Origin: Brassica napus
Lineage: Eukaryota > Streptophyta > Magnoliopsida > Brassicales > Brassicaceae
DNA: 64,000 nt
NCBI RefSeq assembly: GCF_020379485.1
Contig: NC_063452.1
Coordinates: 7,419,065 to 7,483,064 of the forward strand
Direction: 5' to 3'
Shown here: positions 34,391-57,783 of the stretch, piece by piece
Layout: each line of letters begins with the position of its first letter
How positions within the stretch are numbered: position 1 is the stretch's first letter
The notes under the pieces: model-generated
The model's database searches: none
What the model was told of the DNA's origin: nothing
What the model saw: the letters and a program-made list of their open reading frames with translations, nothing else
Translations under genes and position numbers: made by a program

Positions 34391-35024
34391 ATTCCACTAT
34401 CTCGGCCTGCAGTAAACTCAACAAAACCCCTCTTTGGTGCTACACATTCATTGCACAAGACAATCTTCACAACAAAGATGAAAATTAAAACTCACAACTT
34501 GGTAAGGTCTTTCTATCCACTCTCGTCTGAGTCAATCCGAGCTAAGGGATTCTTAAATAGAGAATAAAATAGAAATAGCACCATAGCTCCATTGCGAATC
34601 TCCTGGCCTACTATGGCAAAAGAGGATCAGAAAATATATCCTAGACCATGAGCCCTCTCAACAGCAACAAAAACTTATAGAGAACAAAGAGTCCTAGAAA
34701 CCATATCAAACTAAAACCAACTCAAAGCACAAATAAAGAAGGAAAAACGACTTGAACAATTTGAAACAAGTAAGCTACCGTGTTAATTTTGCGTGCTGTT
34801 TGATCAAATTACATGATACTAGACATGGGCACATTTATCTGGAAATGAATAGCCAAATTGAACCGGACCAAAAAACGAGGTTCGGTTCGGGTTTGAATCT
34901 TATAAATTATCCGAGCGGATCTTATATCCTTAGAACCGAAAAACTAAAACCGAACTCTAATCAAACCAAAAACTGACTAGGTACCCGAATTTCTATGATA
35001 TAGTATATGTTTATATATACTAAC

Positions 35025-35526
35025 TGTGAGAGACAAGGTTTCACTTCTTAGATTTAGGTTAGGTCAAGAGAGATGAATGAGAATCGTGGGCTGAATCCCG
35101 TAAATAAACTTGAAGAATGAATATGATTTTATTGATGAGTTGAAAGATGATGAATACAAAGGAATGTATCTTGAGATGATTACTAAAGAATACGTAATGC
35201 TTTTAATCTAGTACAAAAGTTGATATATGGAAAAGAGATGGATCGTCTTTTATCTTCTCCGTCTTTATATAGTCTAGGTTTTGTTGGCAACCCTTCAACT
35301 GTTCTCCGAGATATTCGGCTTCAATTACGGAACTCGCTTTAGGCTCCTCTTGACCGAGTCTCTTAAGGTGTTAGCTCACTTTCTGTCGTGACCTCTGCTA
35401 TGATGTCTCCCAGGTCCAGTCGTCAGCTCGGCTTTCAGCTCCCTTTGTTATGATGGGCTTATCGCAACCCACATGCTAGCTCACGCTTATCGGTACCTCA
35501 CCTGAGGGTCATATTCGGGTCCAACA
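35025..35526 (-). repeat. 3' LTR (left)
   Basis: 502 bp, plus-strand ends TGTGAGAGAC and GGTCCAACA, so TG...CA as usual. It differs from the right LTR at two sites (TTTTGTTGG vs TTTCGTTGG, and GTGTTAGC vs GTGTTGGC). A minus-strand TATA word CTATATAAAG lies at 35263-35272. Confidence 0.95.
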
Positions 35527-35543
35527 GTTGCCCCCAGCTTCCG
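35527..35543 (-). other. Polypurine tract candidate
   Basis: The minus strand reads CGGAAGCTGGGGGCAAC directly before the 3' LTR. The G-run next to GCAAC resembles Tat polypurine tracts, where plus-strand DNA synthesis is primed. Confidence 0.65.
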
Positions 35544-35731
35544 AATAAAATCCTTTGTCTCGGAAGCTAGAATCTAGCTATCGATCTTATCTTTTCGTTA
35601 AGATAATGATTAGTTCTTATCCTATTTAGATTCAGCTTACTCGATCTAACGGTCTTTATTACGTTTGGCAGAATCTACGGTTCAGATGGAGAGGGTTTGA
35701 AATGACTTTTCCGAATCTCGAGAGGTGATGG

Positions 35732-35740
35732 GATATAAAG
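35732..35740 (+). promoter_or_regulatory. TATA box of the antisense gene
   Basis: GATATAAAG lies about 175 bp upstream of the antisense ATG, outside the LTR, oriented with the antisense gene. No transcript evidence is available. Confidence 0.5.
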
Positions 35741-35913
35741 CGGTGAACATTAACTGCTAGCCTCCCACTTTCTCCACGCCTCCGTTCGGTTTTCAAGGTA
35801 ACTTCTCTCCTCTCTCTTTATTTTACTGCGATTTTTTTATCTTCCTCGTTACTTTTCTCTGCAAATTCTCTCCCAAACCTTGCAATCGATTTTCTCCTTA
35901 ACCTTCCCATACT

Positions 35914-38405
35914 ATGGATCATCCGAAAGAAGGTTCCGGGGAATCCGGGATGCCTCCCTCTGCTTCTGGAGCTAAACTACTGAAAGTTAAGCAAGAAGTC
36001 GGAGCCAAGATGAGGAAGGGGAAAAAGACAGCCAGGGAGGCAATCGCGACCAGAGTTTCTAAACGGAAGAAGAAAGACGATTCTAGTGGGAGCAGTCCTC
36101 ACTCGCCTTCGTTGCTGAAAAATCAAGACGTGGTTAACCTCATGGTTCAAGCTCTCGGCCAAAAGGAGCTTGGCCGTGCCTGTAATTCCGACGAAACCCC
36201 CGAGACCGCTCCGGAGGGTTGGTTCTGTTGCCATGAGAAGTACATCTCCAAGTCTCACTTGAGATTTCCTCTTCCGACCCTACTGCTTGATCTACTAGAT
36301 CATTATCAGTTAGCCCTTTCCCAACTCTGTCCCTCGGTTATCCGGGTGATAAACGGCTTTATCACTAGGTCCAAAGAGGAGGGGGTTAGCGTCGGTCTTA
36401 CCGAACTTATGAGCCTCTTTTCCCTGAAGGAAAGCGCCTCTAAGGAGGGTGGTACCGGGACCTACTACCTCCCTAGTCGTCCCAATCATGTTATCTTCAG
36501 ATTCTCTAGTAGTGATGATGACTGGAGGAAGAAGTATTTTTACGTTAAAGTTGATCCTTCGACGGTTCCTGTGGGTCGGAACCTTAGGGTCACTTGGACT
36601 AATCCATCTGGTTAGGAATTCTAGGGATATGCTTTTTCCGTTTTATTCATTTATGGCCGAGTAACCTTTTTGCTCTGATTTACTTGCAGAAATCGAAGAT
36701 CCTCCGAAGCTCTCTACCAAGCTCACCAGGGCTCTATACCGCAAGTTGCAGCAGAGTCCCTGTACCTGGGTAGCCTACACCACTTCTCGAATAAGTGCAG
36801 CCAGATTCCCAGATACCTACAACGCCTCTTTCCAAGATCCCATTCCTGCTGAGAACCTTGAGAGTAAGTTCTTGTTCGAACCTTTTTAATGATTTTATCG
36901 CTTTGAAGTTTTTAAACTTAAGGATTTCCATTGTTCCAGTTTCGGCAGGCGATTCAGTTGTATCGATCTCAACTGGTGCTAGTGCTTCGGGAACTGAAAA
37001 GTCTCAGCCAGGTGACATGACTCTGCGACCATCATTCCGTTCTAGGGGTAACCCCTCTAAAGCTGCCAGTGCTTCTCGTGGAAGCGACAGGAACCAAGGA
37101 GGATCGTTCCTTATCTCAATGAAGGAAGTTTTGGACGACGGAGGATCCAAACCTGTTGTCGAGACTACTCCAACTGAGGTTGTAGCTCAGGATGCTGCTC
37201 CTCTCCCTGAGGTCCAGGTGCCGGAGGCTGACTACCAGGCTCCGAAGGGTACCTCTGAGGTCGAGCCGTCGAGACACAAGAGGCCCAGGACCGATCAGGG
37301 CGGAGCTCCCACCCGTTCTTCTTCCTCGTCCTCTAGAGGAGGGACTGTTGGGTGGAGCTTTACCCATTCGAAGCCTGGGTCGATCCTGGACGACTCTTGG
37401 GGCCTAGCTGCGATAATGAGGCACCTGAAGAGCGTGGGATGTCCCCTTCCAGCGCTCAAGGACCTGACTAACCGAGATGAGTATCTCGATATTGCCCACT
37501 GTATGGGTCAGGTACGTGATCTCTATCTGTTCTTTGTTTACATTCTTTGGAGACGATGATATATATTTTTTTTGGATTTATTGCAGTTGGCTGGGGCTGT
37601 TAACAGGGCCCAGCTCAGGTTTGAGAATGCTCTGTGTGCTGCCCCCAATGCTGGTGAACTTGCTGAGGTTACCGAGATGGTTAAGGCAGCCAAAGCCGAT
37701 CTTGACCAAGCCCGGGTTCGAATTTCTGAACTCGAAGCCGAAGTGACGAGGCTAGGCTCGAAGGCCGATGCTCAGCAAGGAGAGATCGAGAGTCAAAAGC
37801 TCGATATCCAGGTGAAGAGCAGGAGGATCAATGATTTGGAGGCTGCTCGAAAGATAGCTGAGCATCAAGTACGTGAGCTCATTGCCTCATCCCAGGATAG
37901 CCAGAAGAACAAGGAAGCTGAAGTCAAGCTGGCTGTCAGGGAAGGGAAGAAAGAAGTCGCCGAAGCTTACGGCAAGATCCTGGTCTGTGTTAAGGAGAAG
38001 TTTGCTAGGAAGAAAGATGAGGTCAACGCCTTGGTGTACGCTCAGGAGCTCCAAGCTAATGCCGACCTCTTGAAGGATATGCTGAACAACAAGATCCAAA
38101 GCGTTGAAGAGGAGTACAACCAATTGGTGGCCTTATTACCAGAAGCGACAACTGCGTATGAGAAGGCTCAAGTCTCTGACTTCTCGGTCAGCAAGCTTCC
38201 TCTTCCCCAGATCTCGGAGAGTTCAGGTACTTTCGAGATTAACATGTTTAATCCATCCTTTTCTGGGGAGTATGGCTCTAATTTGGGTTTGATGGCTCCT
38301 GACTTAGCTCCAGTCGAGGCAGCAATAGGAGGTGATGGCAATGTGGTCGATGAGGGAGTTCCTGCCGGTGCTGGTGATCCGATTCAGGAAGAGAAGGAAG
38401 ATTGA
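35914..38405 (+). CDS. Antisense spliced gene of the Tat retrotransposon (753 aa)
   Basis: It lies on the strand opposite gag and pol, between pol and the 3' LTR. Four exons join in frame by GT-AG introns: 35914-36610, 36690-36863, 36940-37511, 37587-38405. The ATG is in a good context (ACTATGG). Residues about 1-75 are basic, with KRKKK-type clusters (nuclear-type). About 85-290 form a globular part containing LLDLLDHYQLALSQLCPSVI, resembling the family annotated as putative gypsy-type transposon protein (Pfam Transposase_28, from memory). The middle is low-complexity Ser/Pro with a KRPRTDQGG motif. About 490-690 is a Lys/Glu/Ala coiled coil. The C terminus is acidic. Its function is unknown; candidates are RNA or protein binding that aids the element, or silencing through convergent transcription. 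Confidence 0.8.
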
Positions 38406-39463
38406 GAGCTACGGCTCTTTTAGCTTTATGTTTTGTGTTTTTAAGACTTCGGCCTAAGGGCTTTGTTTCGTTATGCATTATGACTTAGTGCCTGAGGAGG
38501 CCTTTAAACCTTAACACTTGCTGGATTTCAATAGCCTGGGGAGGCTTTTAAACCCTTTCTTATGTTTAAATCGTGGCTATTATTTCTGTTTTAAGTTTTT
38601 GAACTTAACCTCGTTTCATTTAATCATAGTGATTGCGAATCTCAGATGAGTTGTGTGCTGTCATCGTTGAGTCGGATTAGGACCTTTAGTCTTAATTTAT
38701 GATAAGCATTTAGCTTAATGGATATTCGGTCGTGATAACCTTAAAGAGAAGTTCTTGATTTTAGCTCGGGGACCTGAGTCCGATTCGAAAGGTTCTGGGA
38801 CCTGGTTGTTCAGGTTCGTAGGAACCTGGATTTAGATTTATAGGGACCTGAGTTAATTCGAAGGACTTCGAGGCCTTTGAAGTTTAACGGATGGAATTGA
38901 GGAATTTCGGAATTTTCCTGATTCTTTAGGATTTTAAGACCTTTCGATTTTGATAAGGGTTTCAAGACCTTTTGGTTTTGATTAGGATTTTAGGACCTGG
39001 TTGATTGTTAAGGATTTTGCGGCCTTAGCAGTTGTCAAGGATTTTAGGACCTTGTTGATTGTTAAGGATTTTAAGACCTTGGTTTATGTTAAGGATTTTA
39101 AGACCTTTGGGTGTATTAAGGATTTTAAGACCTTTGGGTTCAGGTTTTTAGGGACCTGAATGTATTCGAGATTGTTGAGCTTAGGTCCCGATTTAGGGGG
39201 ACCTAAATTTTCTTGGAGGGTTTTAAGACCTTTGATGTTTATGAAACTGAATCAATCGTTTTATTAATATCAGATATCAGAGAATACATGATTCAGATTA
39301 TTTACACAGTAACTATTTTTAGGCTAAGTGTTCTTGGTAACACCTGCCCCTTTGGCTTAGGTGAGGAGGTTGGTGAGAAGAGGTTGGGGCTGCACTCATG
39401 ACGGAGTTGCCTACGTACCCAGTCAAGGGATCAAGCCAAACGTAGTTCAGGGGTTTTAGGTAC
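38406..39463. repeat. Convergent 3' region with degenerate short repeats
   Basis: This stretch separates the stops of the antisense gene and pol, so it would hold both 3' ends. From about 38930 to 39240 it is built of repeated AGGATTTTAAGACCTTTGGG-like units of ~20-30 bp. No long open frame. Confidence 0.7.
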
Positions 39464-42400
39464 CTAATGATAGTATCTTTTGAGGTTCGTGGCATTCCAC
39501 GATCGGATTTCAGGTACCCCGGTTCGTACCTTCTGGAGTTTGTAAACTCCGGGTCGTACTATGTGGATAATTCGGTAGGGTCCTTCCCAGTTGGTTCCTA
39601 ACTTTCCAGCTCCCGGTTCCTTTGTTCCTTCGAACACTTTCCTAAGCACTAGGTCCCCTACGGCGAACTGTCGGGGCCTTACTTTGGAATTGTAGTGTCG
39701 TGCCATTGCTTGCTGATAATTTTGAATGCGAAGCAAGGCTTGGTCTCGTCTTTCCTCGATCAAGTCGAGGCTATCCATCAGGAGCTGGTTATTAGCTGCG
39801 GGATTTGAGGTGCAGAGCTCCCGTCTGAGGCTACCTGCGGTGGTTTCTGCTGGGACGACAGCTTCCATCCCATAAGCTAAGGAGAAGGGAGTTTCCTCTG
39901 TAGCTTTTCGTGGGGTGGTTCGGCAGGCCCATAGTACTTCGGGTAGTTTTTCCGACCAAAGCTCCTTTTGGGCTCCTAGGCGTTTCTTGAGGTTTGCTAA
40001 AACTGATTTGTTGGCAGCCTCCGCCTGTCCGTTCCCTTGAGGTCGCCGAGGTGATGAGAAGGTGAGGCGGATGTTCCATTTATCGCAGAAACTTTTGAAG
40101 TCGTGGGATATGAACTGTCCTCCATTGTCGGTTACGATTTCGTATGGGACGCCATGCCTGCATACGATGTTTTTCCAAACAAATCCTTCGACCTCGAATC
40201 TGTTTATTTGTTGGAAAGCTTCAGCTTCAATCCATTTCGTGAAGTAGTCGGTTAGGACCAGGAGGTTTAGTAACTTCTTTCCTTTCCCTGAAGGTACTAA
40301 TGGACCTATAATGTCCATAGACCACCTCATGAATGGGTAGGGAGCTGATATGTTAGACAGCTTTTCCGCTGGTTGGTGTATGATCGGTGCATGCCTTTGG
40401 CATTTGTCGCACGATGAGGAGTAGACCTCACAATCTGCGATAATGGTAGGCCAGAAGTAGCCTTGTCTTTTTATTCGGATGGCTAAGGCTCTGCCTCCGG
40501 AATGGTTTCCACAGGAACCGTCGTGCATTTCCTTCATGAGTTTCATAGCTACTAGGCCGTGAACGCATTTTAGGTAAGGTCCGGAGACACTTCGTTTGTG
40601 GAGGGCTGACTCGATTATACAGTATCTTGCTGCTAAAGCTTTGAGTTTTCGAGCCTCCCACTTGTTGGGTGGAATTTTTCCCTCTAGGATGTAATCCATG
40701 ATCGGTATTCTCCAGTCTTCTCTCCCTACAACTTTGTTGTGAAGAGAGGAGGGAGATTCCTGTTCGGGACCTGGTGCCGTGGTGCCCCCGGAGATATTCG
40801 TTGGAGTAGGTTCTGGGTTCTGAGGAATATCTCCAATTTCCTCGTTATCCCCTGTGGTTTGTGTAGCGTTCCTAGATGCGTTTTTAAGAGCGGTGCGGCT
40901 TCTTGTTTGGACTTTATAGACAAGTGGCTCCGAGGTCTGGATGGTGCCCCCGGAGGTACTCGTAGAGTTAGGCTCTAGGGAGTCTGAACTTCGGTGAGTA
41001 CCTTCACTTTTGTCGTTGTTTTCCGGGTTCTGGGTTGCTTTCCTGGAGGTGTGCTTTCTAAAGCTGCGTGTTCTAGTTTTCGGGAACCAGAATGTCGTGA
41101 AAACTTGGGTAGCTACCGTCGGGAGGCTGTTATCCTCTATTTTTTCCTTTGGTTTGCTATCCATCTCAGCCTTGGTAGCTATGTCGATACTTGGCTTCTC
41201 GATTCCTTCCACGGGTATAATTCGTTTTACGAGAGGGTCGGATGTGGAAGCTAATGCGGCGAGCGCGTCTGCTGAGGAGTTCTCCCCTCGTGGGATCCTC
41301 GTTAGCTCGAACTTGTCAAACTGCTTTGTGAGGTTTAGGACGACCTCGAGGTATGCCCCCATTCTTTCGTCCCTTGTTTCGTATTCCCCGTGAAACTGGC
41401 TAGCTACCAGCTGCGAGTCGCTGTAGGCGTTTAGCTCCCGAATTCCGAGGCTCAGGGCGAGCTTTAATCCAGCGATTAGTGCTTCGTACTCGGCCTCGTT
41501 GTTGGAAGCGTTAAATCCAAGTCTATAGGATTGTTCGATGGTTTCTCCGGCTGAGGAGGTTAGTCTTAAACCGACACCGGAGCCTTGCCTTGACGAGGCT
41601 CCGTCCACGTATAGGCTCCATTTCGGAACCTCTGTTTCCTGGTCTAGATGTTCGGATGCTAGCTCAATAACGAAATCGGCGAGGACCTGAGCTTTTGCTG
41701 CTGCTCGGGGTCTGTACTCGATGTCGTACTCGCTGAGCTCTATAGCCCATTTTGCTAATCGTCCGGATTGGCTAGGGCTATGCAGAATCGTCCGTAATGG
41801 TTGTGAGGTCATTACGATGATCGAGTGCGATTGGAAATAAGGTCGCAGCTTCCTGGCAGCTGTCACGACTGCTAGGGCTAGTTTTTCCATGGTGGGATAT
41901 CTCGTCTCGGCGTCTATTAAGCTTTTGCTAGTATAATAGACAGGTCTCTGTTCGTTTTGTTCCTCTCGTACTAGCACTCCGCTGACTGCAGCTGCCGACA
42001 CGGCGAGGTACAGGTACAGTGGTTCTCCTACTACAGGTTTGGATAGTATCGGAGGTTCCGAGAGGTAAGCCTTCAGCTGTTTGAAGGCTTCTTCGCACTT
42101 TTCATCCCATAAGAACTTCTTATTATTTTTCAGAAGTTTATAGAATGGAAGGCATTTATCGGTGGACCTGGAGATGAATCGATTTAGTGCTGCGATCCGT
42201 CCGGTCAATCTTTGTACCTCTCTGGTCGTTTTAGGTGATGGCATTTCCAGGAATGTCGCTATTTGTTTCGGGTTGGCTTCGATGCCTCTTTCGGTTACGA
42301 GGTAACCTAGGAATTCGCCGGAAGGTACTCCGAAGGTACACTTAGCTGGGTTTAGCTTCATGTCGTATTTGTTGAGGATTTCGAAACATTCTCTTAGATG

Positions 42401-43144
42401 GGAGATGTGGTCCTCCCCCTTTGAGGATTTGACTAACATGTCGTCGATGTAGACTTCCATGGTTTTTCCGAGTTGTCCAGCGAACATTTTATTTACTAAC
42501 CTTTGATAGGTAGCTCCCGCGTTTTTCAAACCAAACGGCATGACCTTGTAACAATAGGTTCCTCGTTCAGTTATGAATGCGGTTTTCTCTTGATCCTCAG
42601 GATCCATCATAATCTGGTTATATCCTGAAAAGGCATCCATAAAGGACAAGAGCTGGTGTCCAGCCGTTGCTTCGACCAAACGATCGATATGAGGTAACGG
42701 GAAGCTGTCCTTAGGACAGGCTTTGTTTAAATCGGTGAAGTCTACACAGATTCTCCATTTCCCATTCTTCTTTTTTACTACCACTGGGTTAGCTAGCCAA
42801 TCGGGGTATTGTACCTCTCGGATGGACCCGGCCTTTGTTAGTCGATCGACCTCGTCGTTGACAGCTTGGGCTTTTTCTAGACCTAGCTTACGACGTTTCT
42901 GTTTGATCGGTTTAAAAGTAGGGTCTACATTGAGCTTATGAGTGGTGACATTTGCATCTATGCCTTTCATGTCGCTGGTGGTCCATGCAAAGGTTTTGAT
43001 ATTCTGTTTTAGGAATTCGACGAGCTCCTTTTTGGTTTCGAGAGGTAGCTCGGATCCGATGCTCACCTGTTTCTCAGGATTTGAGTCGTCGATGCTAACT
43101 TTTTCGGTGAGGTTCTTAGGGGGACCTCGGATATTTCGTTGCAT
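39464..43144 (-). CDS. Tat pol: reverse transcriptase, two RNase H domains, integrase
   Basis: A 1226-codon open frame, in the same frame as gag-protease and separated from it by one UAG and nine codons. RT (about residues 75-300) has FMDAFSGYNQI and the catalytic YIDD at 232-235. The first RNase H (about 350-480) is degenerate: the usual catalytic Asp region reads LYLAVSAAAVSG. A second, archaeal-type RNase H (about 508-640) has YVDGASSRQGSG, NNEAEYEAL and YSDSQLV, as is typical of Tat elements. Integrase has an HHCC finger (H-x(n)-H...C-DKCQRHA) and a DDE core (WSMDIIGP, TDNGGQF, GQAEAANK), ending near a GPY/F-like module (WEGPYRI). All catalytic residues of RT, second RNase H and integrase are present. 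The listed Met is only a formal start; readthrough from gag is the likely source of the protein. Confidence 0.94.
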   Translation of the reverse strand: MQRNIRGPPKNLTEKVSIDDSNPEKQVSIGSELPLETKKELVEFLKQNIKTFAWTTSDMKGIDANVTTHKLNVDPTFKPIKQKRRKLGLEKAQAVNDEVDRLTKAGSIREVQYPDWLANPVVVKKKNGKWRICVDFTDLNKACPKDSFPLPHIDRLVEATAGHQLLSFMDAFSGYNQIMMDPEDQEKTAFITERGTYCYKVMPFGLKNAGATYQRLVNKMFAGQLGKTMEVYIDDMLVKSSKGEDHISHLRECFEILNKYDMKLNPAKCTFGVPSGEFLGYLVTERGIEANPKQIATFLEMPSPKTTREVQRLTGRIAALNRFISRSTDKCLPFYKLLKNNKKFLWDEKCEEAFKQLKAYLSEPPILSKPVVGEPLYLYLAVSAAAVSGVLVREEQNEQRPVYYTSKSLIDAETRYPTMEKLALAVVTAARKLRPYFQSHSIIVMTSQPLRTILHSPSQSGRLAKWAIELSEYDIEYRPRAAAKAQVLADFVIELASEHLDQETEVPKWSLYVDGASSRQGSGVGLRLTSSAGETIEQSYRLGFNASNNEAEYEALIAGLKLALSLGIRELNAYSDSQLVASQFHGEYETRDERMGAYLEVVLNLTKQFDKFELTRIPRGENSSADALAALASTSDPLVKRIIPVEGIEKPSIDIATKAEMDSKPKEKIEDNSLPTVATQVFTTFWFPKTRTRSFRKHTSRKATQNPENNDKSEGTHRSSDSLEPNSTSTSGGTIQTSEPLVYKVQTRSRTALKNASRNATQTTGDNEEIGDIPQNPEPTPTNISGGTTAPGPEQESPSSLHNKVVGREDWRIPIMDYILEGKIPPNKWEARKLKALAARYCIIESALHKRSVSGPYLKCVHGLVAMKLMKEMHDGSCGNHSGGRALAIRIKRQGYFWPTIIADCEVYSSSCDKCQRHAPIIHQPAEKLSNISAPYPFMRWSMDIIGPLVPSGKGKKLLNLLVLTDYFTKWIEAEAFQQINRFEVEGFVWKNIVCRHGVPYEIVTDNGGQFISHDFKSFCDKWNIRLTFSSPRRPQGNGQAEAANKSVLANLKKRLGAQKELWSEKLPEVLWACRTTPRKATEETPFSLAYGMEAVVPAETTAGSLRRELCTSNPAANNQLLMDSLDLIEERRDQALLRIQNYQQAMARHYNSKVRPRQFAVGDLVLRKVFEGTKEPGAGKLGTNWEGPYRIIHIVRPGVYKLQKVRTGVPEIRSWNATNLKRYYH

Positions 43145-43165
43145 TTCGCGACTCTCCTGGATCTG

Positions 43166-43177
43166 TAATTGCTATTG
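43166..43177 (-). promoter_or_regulatory. UAG stop in tobamovirus-type readthrough context
   Basis: On the minus strand the gag-protease frame ends CAA-TAG-CAA-TTA (TAG at 43174-43172). TAG followed by CARYYA is the established type I readthrough signal, first known from the tobacco mosaic virus replicase. The frame stays open after it and enters pol, so occasional suppression would yield a Gag-Pro-Pol polyprotein. Confidence 0.8.
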
Positions 43178-45802
43178 GGGGGATTCTTTTATGATCTCGA
43201 ATCCTCCCAGGTAACAGATCCTTGAAATCTTTTGGCTACCGTGTATGGTAGCTATTCCGTTGGTTGTTGGAAATTTCACGCATTGGTGATAAGTTGAAGC
43301 TACTGCTTTCATCTTATGAATCCAAGGCCTTCCGAGGATTGCGTGGAAAGGGGATGGTTTGTCGACAACTATGAAGTTGGTCATTTTCATGACTCCGCCA
43401 GCTATAATTGGGAGCTTAATTGTTCCCAATGAGGTGGCTGTTTCACCTGAGAAACCTACGAGGTTGGATTTCTGGTCGACAATTTCGTAGTCGTCTATTT
43501 CCATTCCCTTTAGTGCGTTGTAGAAAATAAGATCGACGGAGCTTCCGGTGTCGATCATGAGCTTAGGTACCTCGTACCCTGCTATATTTAATGTTATGAC
43601 AAGGGCATCGTCATGAGGTCTATCGAGGTCTAATGTCTCACTCTCCCAGAAAGAGATCTTAGTGTTAGACTCAGGCTTGGTCGGTTTGGACTGAGTGTTT
43701 GACACAGCTTTCCGTACGTGACTTTTAATAGAGTTAACGGAGTCTTGACACACATCGGACCCTCCAAGGATGTAATCGATCCTTGAGCCAGGGCTCGATT
43801 GGGGAGGTGGTTTACTCAAGAGGGCCTCGATTTGTAGGCTTTTTCCTTGTGGAAACTTTCCAAGGATCATATCGACTCTCTTTTTGGGAGCTGGGGGTGG
43901 TGAGTCTGTTTCTTTTTCAGGTGACCTCTCGCGTTTTGGAGAGCTATCTCTGGGACCTCTCTTCTGATAAGGTTGTGGCTTTTTGAGGTCCACATCTTTT
44001 ATTTCTCCGGCTGCGAATTTAGCAGCCAGTTGTCGTTGGAGGTCCCAACATTCTTCGGTTGAATGTCCCTTTCGATCGTGGTAAGAGCAATGTTTGCTCT
44101 CGTCATAACCTTTGGACCAGGGGGCTTTAGCTGTCGCGGCGACAGGTTTTTCTTCCTTGTCTTCCTCGACTACGTAAGAATGTTCTCCCTGGGTCTGATT
44201 ATTTCGGGAGCTACCTCTTTTGTGAGGTCCCTTTCCATCGGAGGCTTCGCCTTTCGGGTGACTCTGGGGTTTTCTGTGGAGCTTATCTAATGCTGCCATT
44301 TCCTCCTCCAAGGTAATGTATCTAGAGGCCTTATGGAGGGCGTCATCGATAGTTGGAGGGGGATTTAGCGTTAGCTCCGAGAAGAAACCTGATTTATACC
44401 AGAGACCTCTCCTAAGAGCCTCAATGGCTACCTGATCGTTGGGATTCGAGAGTTTAGTTCTTACTGCTCTGAACTTTTCGATGTAGACTCGCAGTGAGTC
44501 TCCCAGTCCTTGTCTGATCTTCCAGAGGTCAGCCTCAGACGCTTGTTTCAGGATGTGAGTTGAATATTGCTTCATAAAGGCGTTAGCCAATTGATCGAAA
44601 CTGTCTATAGAGTTCGGCTCGAGGCTGGAGAACCATTCGAGAGCTGTTCCGATCAGGTTTTCGGCAAATGTTCTGCAATATCCTGCATCACACTCTTCCT
44701 TTGTGAAGTGAGCTTTAACGATAGCTAATCGGAAGGCTCTTAAATAGGCCTTTGGGTCTGCGTTCCCATCGTATTCAGGAATCTTAATTTTTCGAGTATC
44801 TCTTATGTAAGAGTTGGCAATTCTATCGGTGAACGGAGTTCCACGAGTCTCCTCAATTAAGCTCTCGATTTCGGGAGCTGAGCTCGTTACCTTGTGAACT
44901 TGAGCTCCCAATTTCTGGAGAGCTGCGTGGGTTCGCTCCATGTACCTGCGAATTGCGTCAGGTCCCTCGAAGGGAAGGACATTTGGGTCATTATCAGATA
45001 CTCGGCGAGCAGGTTCCTGGTGAGACCGAGCTCGGTCGTCTTCCCAGCTAGCTGGCGAAATAGGTCGCTCATTGGTCCTTAGGCTCCGAGCGAGGTTAGT
45101 GCGGAGAGCTGCAGGATCAGCATCCGTCCTTTGGTATTCGTCTGTGCTTGGGGTTGAAACCCTAGCTTGAAACACTGAAGCTGATGTTCTGGCCCCGGAC
45201 GGTATGTTGATCCCTGCTCCAGACCCGGAAGGAGGTGGCGGTGGAGGCAAACGGGTGCTCCCACCGGTGTTTCGATCAGGCATGGAGCTAGTTGTAGCTA
45301 CATTGCTCCCCATGGTGCTGGTGATAGGAGGGGTAAACGCAGGAGCTGTCCTAGCGCGAGGCGTTTGGAAAGCAAGTTCCTGCCCTTCTGCACCTGGGCT
45401 ATCAGGGGAGAAGTTCAGGCGCTCTCTAGGGAAGGAAGGGTCAGCTAACCGTTCATGGAAAGTGACTCCTCTTCCCTGGTGGACGGACGGTTGGGTCGTT
45501 GCGGATTGAGATCTGGTTATCTCTTCGAACTGTTGCTGCCGTTCAGCTAACTGTTGCACCGTTCGCTCGGTCTCTTGAGCTTTGTCCACTAACTGGAGCA
45601 TCATCCGACGGATCTCAGAAAGCTGATCTTCCGTTTGGTTCGGAGCGGATTGATGCGATGGGTTATTGAGGGCTGAGGACCCAGAGTTGGTCCCTCCGGA
45701 GGCTCTCGGGTTATTTGCCCCCGGAGCAGTGCAATTCGGTGAGCTATTGCTCTGGTTCGATTGATCGGGGTTAGATGGATTCGTTCCGTCTAATGGATTC
45801 AT
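43172..45802 (-). CDS. Tat gag-protease
   Basis: An 876-aa open frame starting about 36 nt after the primer-binding site. The N-terminal third is Ser/Pro/Asn-rich with a short Gln-rich coiled coil (LAERQQQFEE). A retrotransposon gag domain spans about residues 330-470 (ALEWFSSLEPNSIDSFDQLA). A zinc-finger-like motif CSYHDRKGHSTEEC follows near 575. A basic Ser/Arg/Pro linker leads to an aspartic protease with LMIDTGSSVDLIF (about 785) and ILGRPWIHKM. It ends at the UAG described at 43166-43177. Gag would form the particle and the protease would cut the polyprotein. Confidence 0.93.
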   Translation of the reverse strand: MNPLDGTNPSNPDQSNQSNSSPNCTAPGANNPRASGGTNSGSSALNNPSHQSAPNQTEDQLSEIRRMMLQLVDKAQETERTVQQLAERQQQFEEITRSQSATTQPSVHQGRGVTFHERLADPSFPRERLNFSPDSPGAEGQELAFQTPRARTAPAFTPPITSTMGSNVATTSSMPDRNTGGSTRLPPPPPPSGSGAGINIPSGARTSASVFQARVSTPSTDEYQRTDADPAALRTNLARSLRTNERPISPASWEDDRARSHQEPARRVSDNDPNVLPFEGPDAIRRYMERTHAALQKLGAQVHKVTSSAPEIESLIEETRGTPFTDRIANSYIRDTRKIKIPEYDGNADPKAYLRAFRLAIVKAHFTKEECDAGYCRTFAENLIGTALEWFSSLEPNSIDSFDQLANAFMKQYSTHILKQASEADLWKIRQGLGDSLRVYIEKFRAVRTKLSNPNDQVAIEALRRGLWYKSGFFSELTLNPPPTIDDALHKASRYITLEEEMAALDKLHRKPQSHPKGEASDGKGPHKRGSSRNNQTQGEHSYVVEEDKEEKPVAATAKAPWSKGYDESKHCSYHDRKGHSTEECWDLQRQLAAKFAAGEIKDVDLKKPQPYQKRGPRDSSPKRERSPEKETDSPPPAPKKRVDMILGKFPQGKSLQIEALLSKPPPQSSPGSRIDYILGGSDVCQDSVNSIKSHVRKAVSNTQSKPTKPESNTKISFWESETLDLDRPHDDALVITLNIAGYEVPKLMIDTGSSVDLIFYNALKGMEIDDYEIVDQKSNLVGFSGETATSLGTIKLPIIAGGVMKMTNFIVVDKPSPFHAILGRPWIHKMKAVASTYHQCVKFPTTNGIATIHGSQKISRICYLGGFEIIKESPQ

Positions 45803-45838
45803 CCTTTAAGCTTTAGAGAAAGGGATTCGATTATTTGT

Positions 45839-45855
45839 CCCCACAGACGGCGCCA
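45839..45855 (-). other. Primer-binding site, tRNA-Asp type
   Basis: The minus strand reads TGGCGCCGTCTGTGGGG two bases after the 5' LTR. TGGCGCCGT is complementary to the 3' end recalled for tRNA-Asp; the later part matches less well. Confidence 0.7.
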
Positions 45856-45857
45856 AT

Positions 45858-46359
45858 TGTGAGAGACAAGGTTTCACTTCTTAGATTTAGGTTAGGTCAA
45901 GAGAGATGAATGAGAATCGTGGGCTGAATCCCGTAAATAAACTTGAAGAATGAATATGATTTTATTGATGAGTTGAAAGATGATGAATACAAAGGAATGT
46001 ATCTTGAGATGATTACTAAAGAATACGTAATGCTTTTAATCTAGTACAAAAGTTGATATATGGAAAAGAGATGGATCGTCTTTTATCTTCTCCGTCTTTA
46101 TATAGTCTAGGTTTCGTTGGCAACCCTTCAACTGTTCTCCGAGATATTCGGCTTCAATTACGGAACTCGCTTTAGGCTCCTCTTGACCGAGTCTCTTAAG
46201 GTGTTGGCTCACTTTCTGTCGTGACCTCTGCTATGATGTCTCCCAGGTCCAGTCGTCAGCTCGGCTTTCAGCTCCCTTTGTTATGATGGGCTTATCGCAA
46301 CCCACATGCTAGCTCACGCTTATCGGTACCTCACCTGAGGGTCATATTCGGGTCCAACA
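45858..46359 (-). repeat. 5' LTR (right)
   Basis: 502 bp, the promoter copy for the minus-strand genomic RNA. The TATA word CTATATAAAG lies at 46096-46105. It is identical to the left LTR except at two positions. Confidence 0.95.
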
Positions 46360-46770
46360 CTAACTATATTTTGTTTTCAAAATAATCAAATAAATTAAAA
46401 ATATTCTTTATAAATCAAAATACCCAACAAACCAGAATTACTAAAATAGTTTTTATCCGAAATGTTTAAAATTATTGATTATCCAAATTTTTATCTGAAA
46501 ACCCAAAAATCTGACATTTATTCGAAAGTACCTAAATTTTCAGACGATTTAACCCGAATTAACCAAAAACCAGAACCGAATATAATCTAAAATTACTTTG
46601 GATATTAGCTGACTCCCAACTTTGCTACCCAAACCGAACACTAAAATAACTGAACCGAAACTGAACCAAATTTTCTAAATACTCGAACAGATCTTAAACC
46701 GTCAGATCGAAGAAGCCAATAACCGAAAGAATCAAAATGAGAACCGAATACCCAGGGATACATGATACCA

Positions 46771-56431: not shown

Positions 56432-57783
56432 TATTTCCAAGGAAAATTGTCAAAAATACAATTTTCAAAGCACCATTTTTCAAGTTTACACTAACCACTT
56501 TTACACTAATCTTTAATGAATGATAAAAGACATTTATAATCTTTTAATTAACTTTGACAAAAAAAAACATATGGTTAACTAATCTAAACTTAAAACATCA
56601 ACTATAAACTCTAAATCATCAACTCTAAACCTTAAACCATCGAATATCAACTCTCAACCCTAAATCATCAAACATCAACTCTAAACCTTAAACCCCGAAA
56701 CATCAACTCTAAACCCTAAACCCTAAACCCTAAAACATCAACTCTAAACCCTAAACATAAACCCTAAACCCTAAATCTAAACTTAAAACATCAACTTTAA
56801 AACCTAAATCATCAACTCTAAACCCTAAACCATGAAACATCAACTCTAAACCCTAAACCCCGAAACATCAACTCTAAACCCTAAACCCCGAAACATCAAC
56901 TCTAAACCCTAAACCCTAAACCTTCAAATCTAAACTCTAAAACTTCAACTCTAAACCCTAAACGTAAACCCTAAACCCTATATATTTTGAAATTCGAACC
57001 CTAAACCCTAAAACCCTAAACCTTCGAATCTAAACCCTAAAACATCAACTCTAAACCCTAAACGTAAACCCTAAACCCTAAAACCCTAAACCTTCAAATC
57101 TAAACCCTAAAACATCAACTCTAGGGTTTTAGGTTTTAGGGTTTAGGGTTTAGGGTTTAGGGTTTAGAGTTTAGGGTTTAGAGTTGAAGGTTTAGGGTTT
57201 AGGGTTTAGAGCTGATGTTTTAGGGTTTAGGATAAGTTTTTTAGGGTTTATAGTTTAGAGTTTACTTTTTAGAGTTTAGGGTTTAGTGTTAATAGTTTAG
57301 GGTTTAGTGTTGTTGGTTTAGGGTTTAGGGTTTAGAGTTGATGTTTTAGGGTTTAGAGTTGAAGGTTTAGGGTTTAGGATTTTGAGTTGATGTTTCGGGG
57401 TTTAGGGTTTAGAGTTGATGTTTCATGGTTTAGGGTTTGTATTTCAAAAAAAAATAGGGTTTAGAATTGATGGTTTCGGGTTTAGGGTTCGTATTTAAAA
57501 ATAATAGGTTTAGGATTGATGGTTTAGGGTTTAGAGTTGAGTTTTAGGGTTTAGAGTTTGAATTTCGAAATAGTATAATTTCAAAAAAAATAAAAAAATT
57601 ATTTTTATTTTGTTAGATTTTTATTTATTTAAATATTTATTTATTATATATATAAAGAACAAGAGCATAAAAGTTTTTTTTCACTTAATAAAGAAGGTAT
57701 TTTTGAAAATATATTTTTAGTAGTGGTAAAAATAAAAAGTAGTACCATGATAGTGATAAACATGTAATTTTCCCTATTTCCAA
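56432..57783. mobile_element. Mutator-like foldback element built of telomere-like repeats
   Basis: An exact 9-bp repeat TATTTCCAA (56432-56440, 57775-57783) flanks a 1,334-bp body that starts GGAAAATT and ends AATTTTCCC. Nine bases is the Mutator duplication length. The left half (about 56590-57120) is made of CCCTAAA-type repeats mixed with ACATCAACTCTAAACC units; the right half (about 57121-57560) is the same in reverse, TTTAGGG and AGAGTTGATG. The whole can fold back on itself. No transposase frame. Confidence 0.72.

Follow-up and report, generated by a model that had tools for sequence, protein, structure and literature searches.

Type I readthrough signals, in which a UAG codon is followed at once by CARYYA, form a class defined in the available text of PMC3542737 and PMC5382211, and the initial annotation of the locus described here was right to call UAG-CARYYA an established leaky context. 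The UAG is followed directly by CARYYA in tobamoviruses (in the TMV replicase), benyviruses and pomoviruses (PMC3542737). The form listed for Benyvirus is UAG-CAA-UUA together with a compact stem-loop; in tobamoviruses adenosines stand before the stop (PMC3542737), as CAA does in the present element. The TMV UAG context gives 32% readthrough in transient leaf assays and 6–10% in stable Arabidopsis (PMC2754532). The viral type I stops lie in replicase or coat genes of RNA viruses, whereas the present one separates gag-protease from pol in an LTR retrotransposon of a plant genome.

Among retroelements, the gammaretrovirus MuLV likewise has gag and pol in one frame with a single UAG between them (PMC2194720), but its signal is of type III with a pseudoknot (PMC3542737), unlike the type I signal here. 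The soybean Ty1/copia element SIRE1 is a plant retroelement that also carries a suppressed stop between two frames (PMC2829016, PMC2194720), which bears out the comparison made in the initial annotation, although the stop of SIRE1 separates pol from an env-like frame and the present one separates gag from pol. RIRE2 of rice is a nearer precedent, since it too is placed in the Retand clade by a table in PMC6317226 and is cited as a rice gypsy candidate for readthrough (PMC2754532). Ogre, from the sister Tat clade, likewise has gag-protease and pol as separate ORFs but uses a partly spliced intron (PMC6317226). A review of December 2025 describes ribosomal frameshifting and the use of two transcripts as the two main Gag/Pol strategies (PMC12786077). 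The available portions of PMC5009743 and PMC1142308 contain nothing on this junction, and a literature search that covered few subscription papers found no plant element reported to carry UAG-CARYYA at its gag-pol junction. What appears to be new is that two Retand families far apart from each other have retained a type I signal and that other plant orders show signs of the same site.

Structure and classification of the element

The window, a stretch of 64,000 nucleotides of the Brassica napus genome (contig NC_063452.1), contains a Retand element (Tat lineage, Ty3/Gypsy), which runs on the minus strand from 46359 to 35025 over about 11.3 kb. Its two LTRs differ by 2 mismatches in 502 bp (3 over the untrimmed 505 bp). 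The features are as follows.

35025 to 46359, minus strand: Retand (Tat) LTR retrotransposon, from the LTR pair found by blastn, with the ends trimmed to TG..CA and the 5-bp duplication
46360 to 46364, minus strand: target-site duplication GTTAG, 5' side, from the flanking sequence
35020 to 35024, minus strand: target-site duplication GTTAG, 3' side, from the flanking sequence
45858 to 46359, minus strand: 5' LTR, 502 bp, from blastn and trimming
35025 to 35526, minus strand: 3' LTR, 502 bp, from blastn and trimming
43172 to 45802, minus strand: gag-protease frame from the first ATG to the TAG (open frame 45805–43172, 877 aa)
43538 to 43552, minus strand: DTGSS within the gag frame, read in translation, which we take to be the aspartic protease motif
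43163 to 43177, minus strand: putative type I leaky-stop signal, CAA-TAG-CAA-TTA-CAG, with the TAG at 43174–43172, from the sequence, the copies and a second family
43072 to 43161, minus strand: predicted extended RNA stem-loop starting 10 nt past the stop, from folding
39464 to 43171, minus strand: pol frame with RT, RNase H, second RNase H and integrase, 1235 aa, from the ORF and Pfam
38919 to 39134, minus strand: short tandem repeats in the interval from pol to the 3' LTR, from self-comparison by blastn
37560 to 38405, plus strand: antisense ORF matching DUF1633 (Pfam)
36795 to 37559, plus strand: antisense ORF without a Pfam match
35902 to 36615, plus strand: antisense ORF with a Transposase_28 domain, typical of Retand (Pfam)

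A Pfam search of the gag-protease frame matched the gag domain and listed no protease domain. The protease of MuLV lies after the stop, whereas that of the present element lies before it. In pol, the second RNase H (RVT_3, residues 523–640) is located between RT_RNaseH (383–482) and the integrase domains (877–1044), as matched by Pfam, and the antisense Transposase_28 domain (PF04195) has an E value of 3.1e-6 and a score of 27.8 bits against a cut-off of 26.2. A second RNase H before the integrase is a feature of Tat elements that is present in Ogre too (PMC6317226), and an antisense Transposase_28 ORF between pol and the 3' LTR is a trait of Retand (PMC11963269). Because the element has both, its domain order and antisense ORF fit the Retand clade, so that the Tat assignment first proposed for it is consistent with the structure and can be narrowed. 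Elsewhere in the window, self-comparison shows a dense cluster of repeats, direct as well as inverted and a few hundred bases long, at 56581–57570.

The stop codon between gag-protease and pol

The ORFs and the sequence confirm the junction as it was first annotated: the gag-protease frame (45805–43172) and the pol frame (43171–39464) are one frame with a single TAG between them, and the minus strand at 43177–43166 reads CAA TAG CAA TTA, followed by CAG ATC. The UAG with CARYYA directly after it agrees exactly with the type I context, and the downstream frame is open, in phase and carries the pol domains. As a measure of chance, CARYYA follows 13 of the 8179 stop triplets that the window contains in its six frames, and the gag-protease/pol stop is one of these 13.

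The bare 12-mer was rejected as a genome-wide marker because it occurs at 230 sites, about 70 of them family copies, against 186 for the reversed control. One hundred of the 230 sites were listed, and 72 loci with listed sites were read (8, then 4 covering paired sites, and 60), the family copies already known and a few more of the listed sites being left out; tblastn identified Retand junctions at five of these 72 loci, all five belonging to the family of the window element. Searches for related loci in virus and bacterial contig collections confirmed none, and the matches of a 17-mer around the stop to 43 viral contigs were taken as chance.

Copies of the same family in Brassica napus

A search with a 425-nt junction query gave 40 scored matches among 166 candidates, all 40 at 100% identity. 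Because such a query favours the best matches, a pattern was used in which the 12 junction bases are free and up to 3 mismatches are allowed, with anchors that restrict the search to close copies. This pattern has 72 matches in the genome and none in the reversed control; one of the 72, with 3 mismatches and an unrelated middle, was rejected as chance, leaving 71 family copies. TAG is present in 71 of 71, CAATAGCAATTA (CAATTA) in 70 and CAATAGAAATTA in one. A sense codon, a different stop or a frameshift in most copies, the outcome named in the initial annotation as speaking against a functional stop, was looked for in these 71 and was absent. The open gag-protease frame is 877 aa long in 46 and 879 aa in 3 of the 62 family copies listed (49/62). 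Since TAG is found in all 71 copies and 49 of 62 keep the full gag-protease frame, the element that spread evidently carried the stop already.

Thirty loci were read with 1.5 kb on each side. In 26 of them neither side departs from the window at more than one base, and in the other four one side is 39 to 442 bases off. The family is therefore nearly clonal and its burst too young for the copies to be independent, and they say little on selection; the family-wide comparison suggested at the outset thus upholds the TAG and the hexamer within the family but not their maintenance by selection. Nine large contigs (C243 to C485, the last holding the window) and some small ones carry the 71 copies, and the ten large contigs C1–C234 carry none. 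Such a spread would fit the C and A subgenomes, suggesting that the family of the window element may be a very young burst limited to one subgenome.

A distant second family with the same signal

A query with a Camelina gag-protease (P0296) gave 166 genome matches (83 of 10224 candidates scored). Forty junctions of this second family were read, namely the 36 best-scoring listed matches, all of which reach the end of the query, and four from the first ten large contigs. The homologous codon is TAG in 37 of them, TAA in one, frame-shifted in one and TAT with unrelated sequence after it in one. CARYYA follows the stop in 36 of the 38 stop-bearing junctions (35 CAATTA and one CAATCA), and the two exceptions have AAATTA and TAATTA.

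When sorted by motif, 12 of these 38 copies keep a peptide resembling the start of pol in frame past the stop and 26 are without it. In one copy, L219, pol follows the stop in the same frame with 61% identity to the window pol over 308 residues, and in another, L246, pol begins in the gag frame after the stop and then shifts. Three of the 26 copies without the peptide were read about 1.4 kb further on, and no RT was found there, only junction matches and one weak match in L216 (30% over 56 residues). Four gag-protease copies (L216, L217, L218 and L245) showed no RT over the 0.7–1.4 kb that follow and are probably non-autonomous; L216–L218, which are of the P0296 type, keep UAG-CAATTA.

In ungapped alignment with the window, the 12 in-frame copies agree at 11.7 of the 12 positions made up of the TAG and nine bases, against 10.9 of the 45 bases that precede them and 6.4 of the 45 that follow; for L219 at its best in-frame shift the flanking values are 16 of 45 and 13 of 45, respectively. 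At the level of sequence comparison, this signal, intact between near-chance flanks in two families, is the strongest evidence that points to a retained signal. Over all 38 junctions the majority base has a share of 0.99 in the stop and hexamer; in the preceding 36 nt it has 0.92 and in the following 36 nt 0.74, the last value mixing two groups aligned without gaps. Among the 12 in-frame copies it is 1.000 in the stop and 0.972 in the hexamer against 0.951 before and 0.913 after, a weak within-family contrast. Since this contrast is small and the 26 copies without the pol-start frame keep the signal, part of its conservation may be due to descent.

Relatives in other plants

Three protein searches, of which the best 120 of 160, of 6662 and of 556 matches were taken, gave 335 proteins altogether. 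The end of the protease core can be placed in 237 of these 335 listed relatives; 108 end at most 20 aa beyond it and 129 continue, a split that is not a fair frequency because the length limits of the searches favour separate gag-protease proteins and many matches come from one genus (Silene, Arabidopsis). Less affected by this is the narrow position of the ends: 100 of the 108 end 10–17 aa past the core. Such ends are seen in Brassicaceae, Silene, Beta, Chenopodium, Cannabis, Humulus and Salvia, and also in Centaurea, Helianthus, Tagetes, Deinandra and Acer. A close relative, P0001 (52 members), ends at the stop of the window element, as seen from the protein end only, and the first residue of P0122 (54 members) and of Raphanus P0123 (11 members) is the first Met past the stop, as seen from protein starts only.

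Some of the relatives that continue are true single ORFs, and others are gene models that skip the junction. Arabidopsis models of about 1811 aa (P0130, P0133, P0142 and similar ones) omit the stop junction, apparently by an inferred intron, and are possibly annotation errors. Three run-through proteins picked by eye, Silene P0309 and Microthlaspi P0334 and P0211, have Tyr-Gln-Leu at the place of the stop. CAR-YYA can encode Gln-Leu, and tyrosine is the residue inserted at leaky UAG in plants (PMC2754532). Gln followed by Leu, Ser or Pro 9–19 aa past the core, which occurs in 28 of the 129 continuing relatives, was set aside as uninformative, most of these being families with another linker.

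Retand families lacking the signal

Counter-example families in the B. napus genome were found with the query P0059. In a single-ORF Retand family, whose copies have a 1964-aa frame, there is no stop at the homologous place in 3 of 3 junctions. In a family with an 887-aa frame there is none in 14 of 17 junctions, the other three having TAA without CARYYA. One copy of the latter family gave no pol match over a further 691 nt, and so this family may consist of gag-protease alone, which would make it a poor test. Five further copies were read: in a degraded one the TAG precedes CCGAGC, in two a TAA without CARYYA stands farther downstream, in one the stretch closes with TGA, and the fifth is without a stop. 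Because the 1964-aa and 887-aa families count against universality, the signal is not universal; judging from these junctions, it is common to some Retand families and not to all.

RNA structure after the stop

The 100 nt past the stop have a predicted folding energy of -29.7 kcal/mol with a z score of -5.2 to -5.7 by script, the second lowest among 313 gag-pol windows; a folding tool applied to slightly different stretches gave -4.9 and -3.8, and so z lies between -3.8 and -5.7 depending on the method. For the 34 codons past the stop, none of 1000 synonymous resamplings and 4 of 1000 permutations are as stable, and of 78 other pol stretches one comes near in z (-4.1 against -4.2) but none goes below it. 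Elsewhere in gag-pol, 42165–42066 has a lower z than the stretch past the stop (-6.5), and 44045–43946 and 44105–44006 come near it (-5.6 and -5.1). The stem-loop is inconsistent in the second family, whose 12 in-frame copies have z values from -3.4 to +1.0. Being strong in the window and mixed in the second family, the stem-loop was rejected as a shared feature and is therefore kept just as a possible helper.

Proposed mechanism and alternative explanations

The UAG is very probably a programmed leaky stop that would yield Gag-protease and a Gag-protease-Pol fusion at a set ratio. Most ribosomes would terminate at the UAG to produce Gag-protease as the main product. A minority would decode the UAG, probably as tyrosine, owing to the next six bases CAAUUA, with the CAA before the stop and the stem-loop 10 nt after it as possible helpers. 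These ribosomes would enter the RT, RNase H and integrase region to produce the minor fusion at a set ratio. Readthrough as such is inferred here, as are its frequency, the residue inserted, any part played by the stem-loop and the effect on the Gag to Pol ratio. Since a distant sister family kept the signal while the surrounding bases became unrecognisable, the signal probably sets the amount of enzyme relative to shell protein.

The possibility that the signal is a relic, functional in an ancestor, with the present family being moved by the Pol of other elements, is unlikely: numerous relatives without an in-frame pol start keep the signal, three of them without RT in about 1.4 kb, but the pol of the window element is open over 1235 codons with the expected domains.

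Quite improbable is the production of Pol from a partly spliced transcript from which an intron spanning the stop is removed. Ogre, of the sister clade, splices in this way (PMC6317226), and several Arabidopsis gene models of related elements omit the junction; however, these models resume at differing places from copy to copy, as guesses by a gene finder would. Moreover, pol starts directly after the stop, and the intron-bearing spacer of the Ogre type is absent. There are 287 in-frame GT-AG pairs within 500 nt on each side, but the best scores 7 of 13 on a crude consensus, and the nine best have only 10–20% T before the acceptor. Splicing also leaves the retention of CAATTACAG after the stop unexplained.

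There is very little probability that Pol is started anew at the first ATG past the stop (pol codon 10) by reinitiation or at an internal entry site. The Met is kept in Raphanus P0123 and is the start of both predicted pol proteins, P0122 and P0123, but a gene finder would be expected to give such starts after a stop, and this explanation does not predict the CARYYA context. An upstream frame of 2.6 kb also disfavours reinitiation.

A random nonsense mutation in a dead copy with a chance match to CARYYA is extremely improbable and close to refuted, for although random stops are frequent in plant elements (PMC6317226), TAG stands in 71 of 71 copies with the full gag-protease frame in 49 of the 62 listed, the LTRs differ at just 2 of 502 bases, and the 12 bases recur in a distant family with flanks of unrelated sequence. 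The view of the initial annotation that the stop is functional and not a random mutation is thus supported by the 71 copies, by the second family and by the recurring position of the stop in eudicots. Readthrough is the simplest account of the junction, and splicing, reinitiation and chance mutation fit it less well.

Implications for plant LTR retrotransposons

The evidence leans somewhat towards the UAG-CAR-YYA signal, identical to that of tobamoviruses and benyviruses, being an old route to Pol shared by eudicot Retand elements and lost repeatedly, either through a single substitution that turned the stop into a tyrosine codon or through fusion of the ORFs. How plant LTR elements produce an excess of Gag over Pol is poorly settled, and readthrough, if true, would give plant elements one more way of setting the Gag to Pol ratio, the third after splicing and frameshifting. 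A type I leaky stop that has persisted in different Retand families would extend the list of known strategies by readthrough. It would also warn annotators that gene models skipping the stop may be wrong. Finally, it would link an abundant lineage of plant elements to a signal already measured in Arabidopsis, and would therefore be testable with published reporters.
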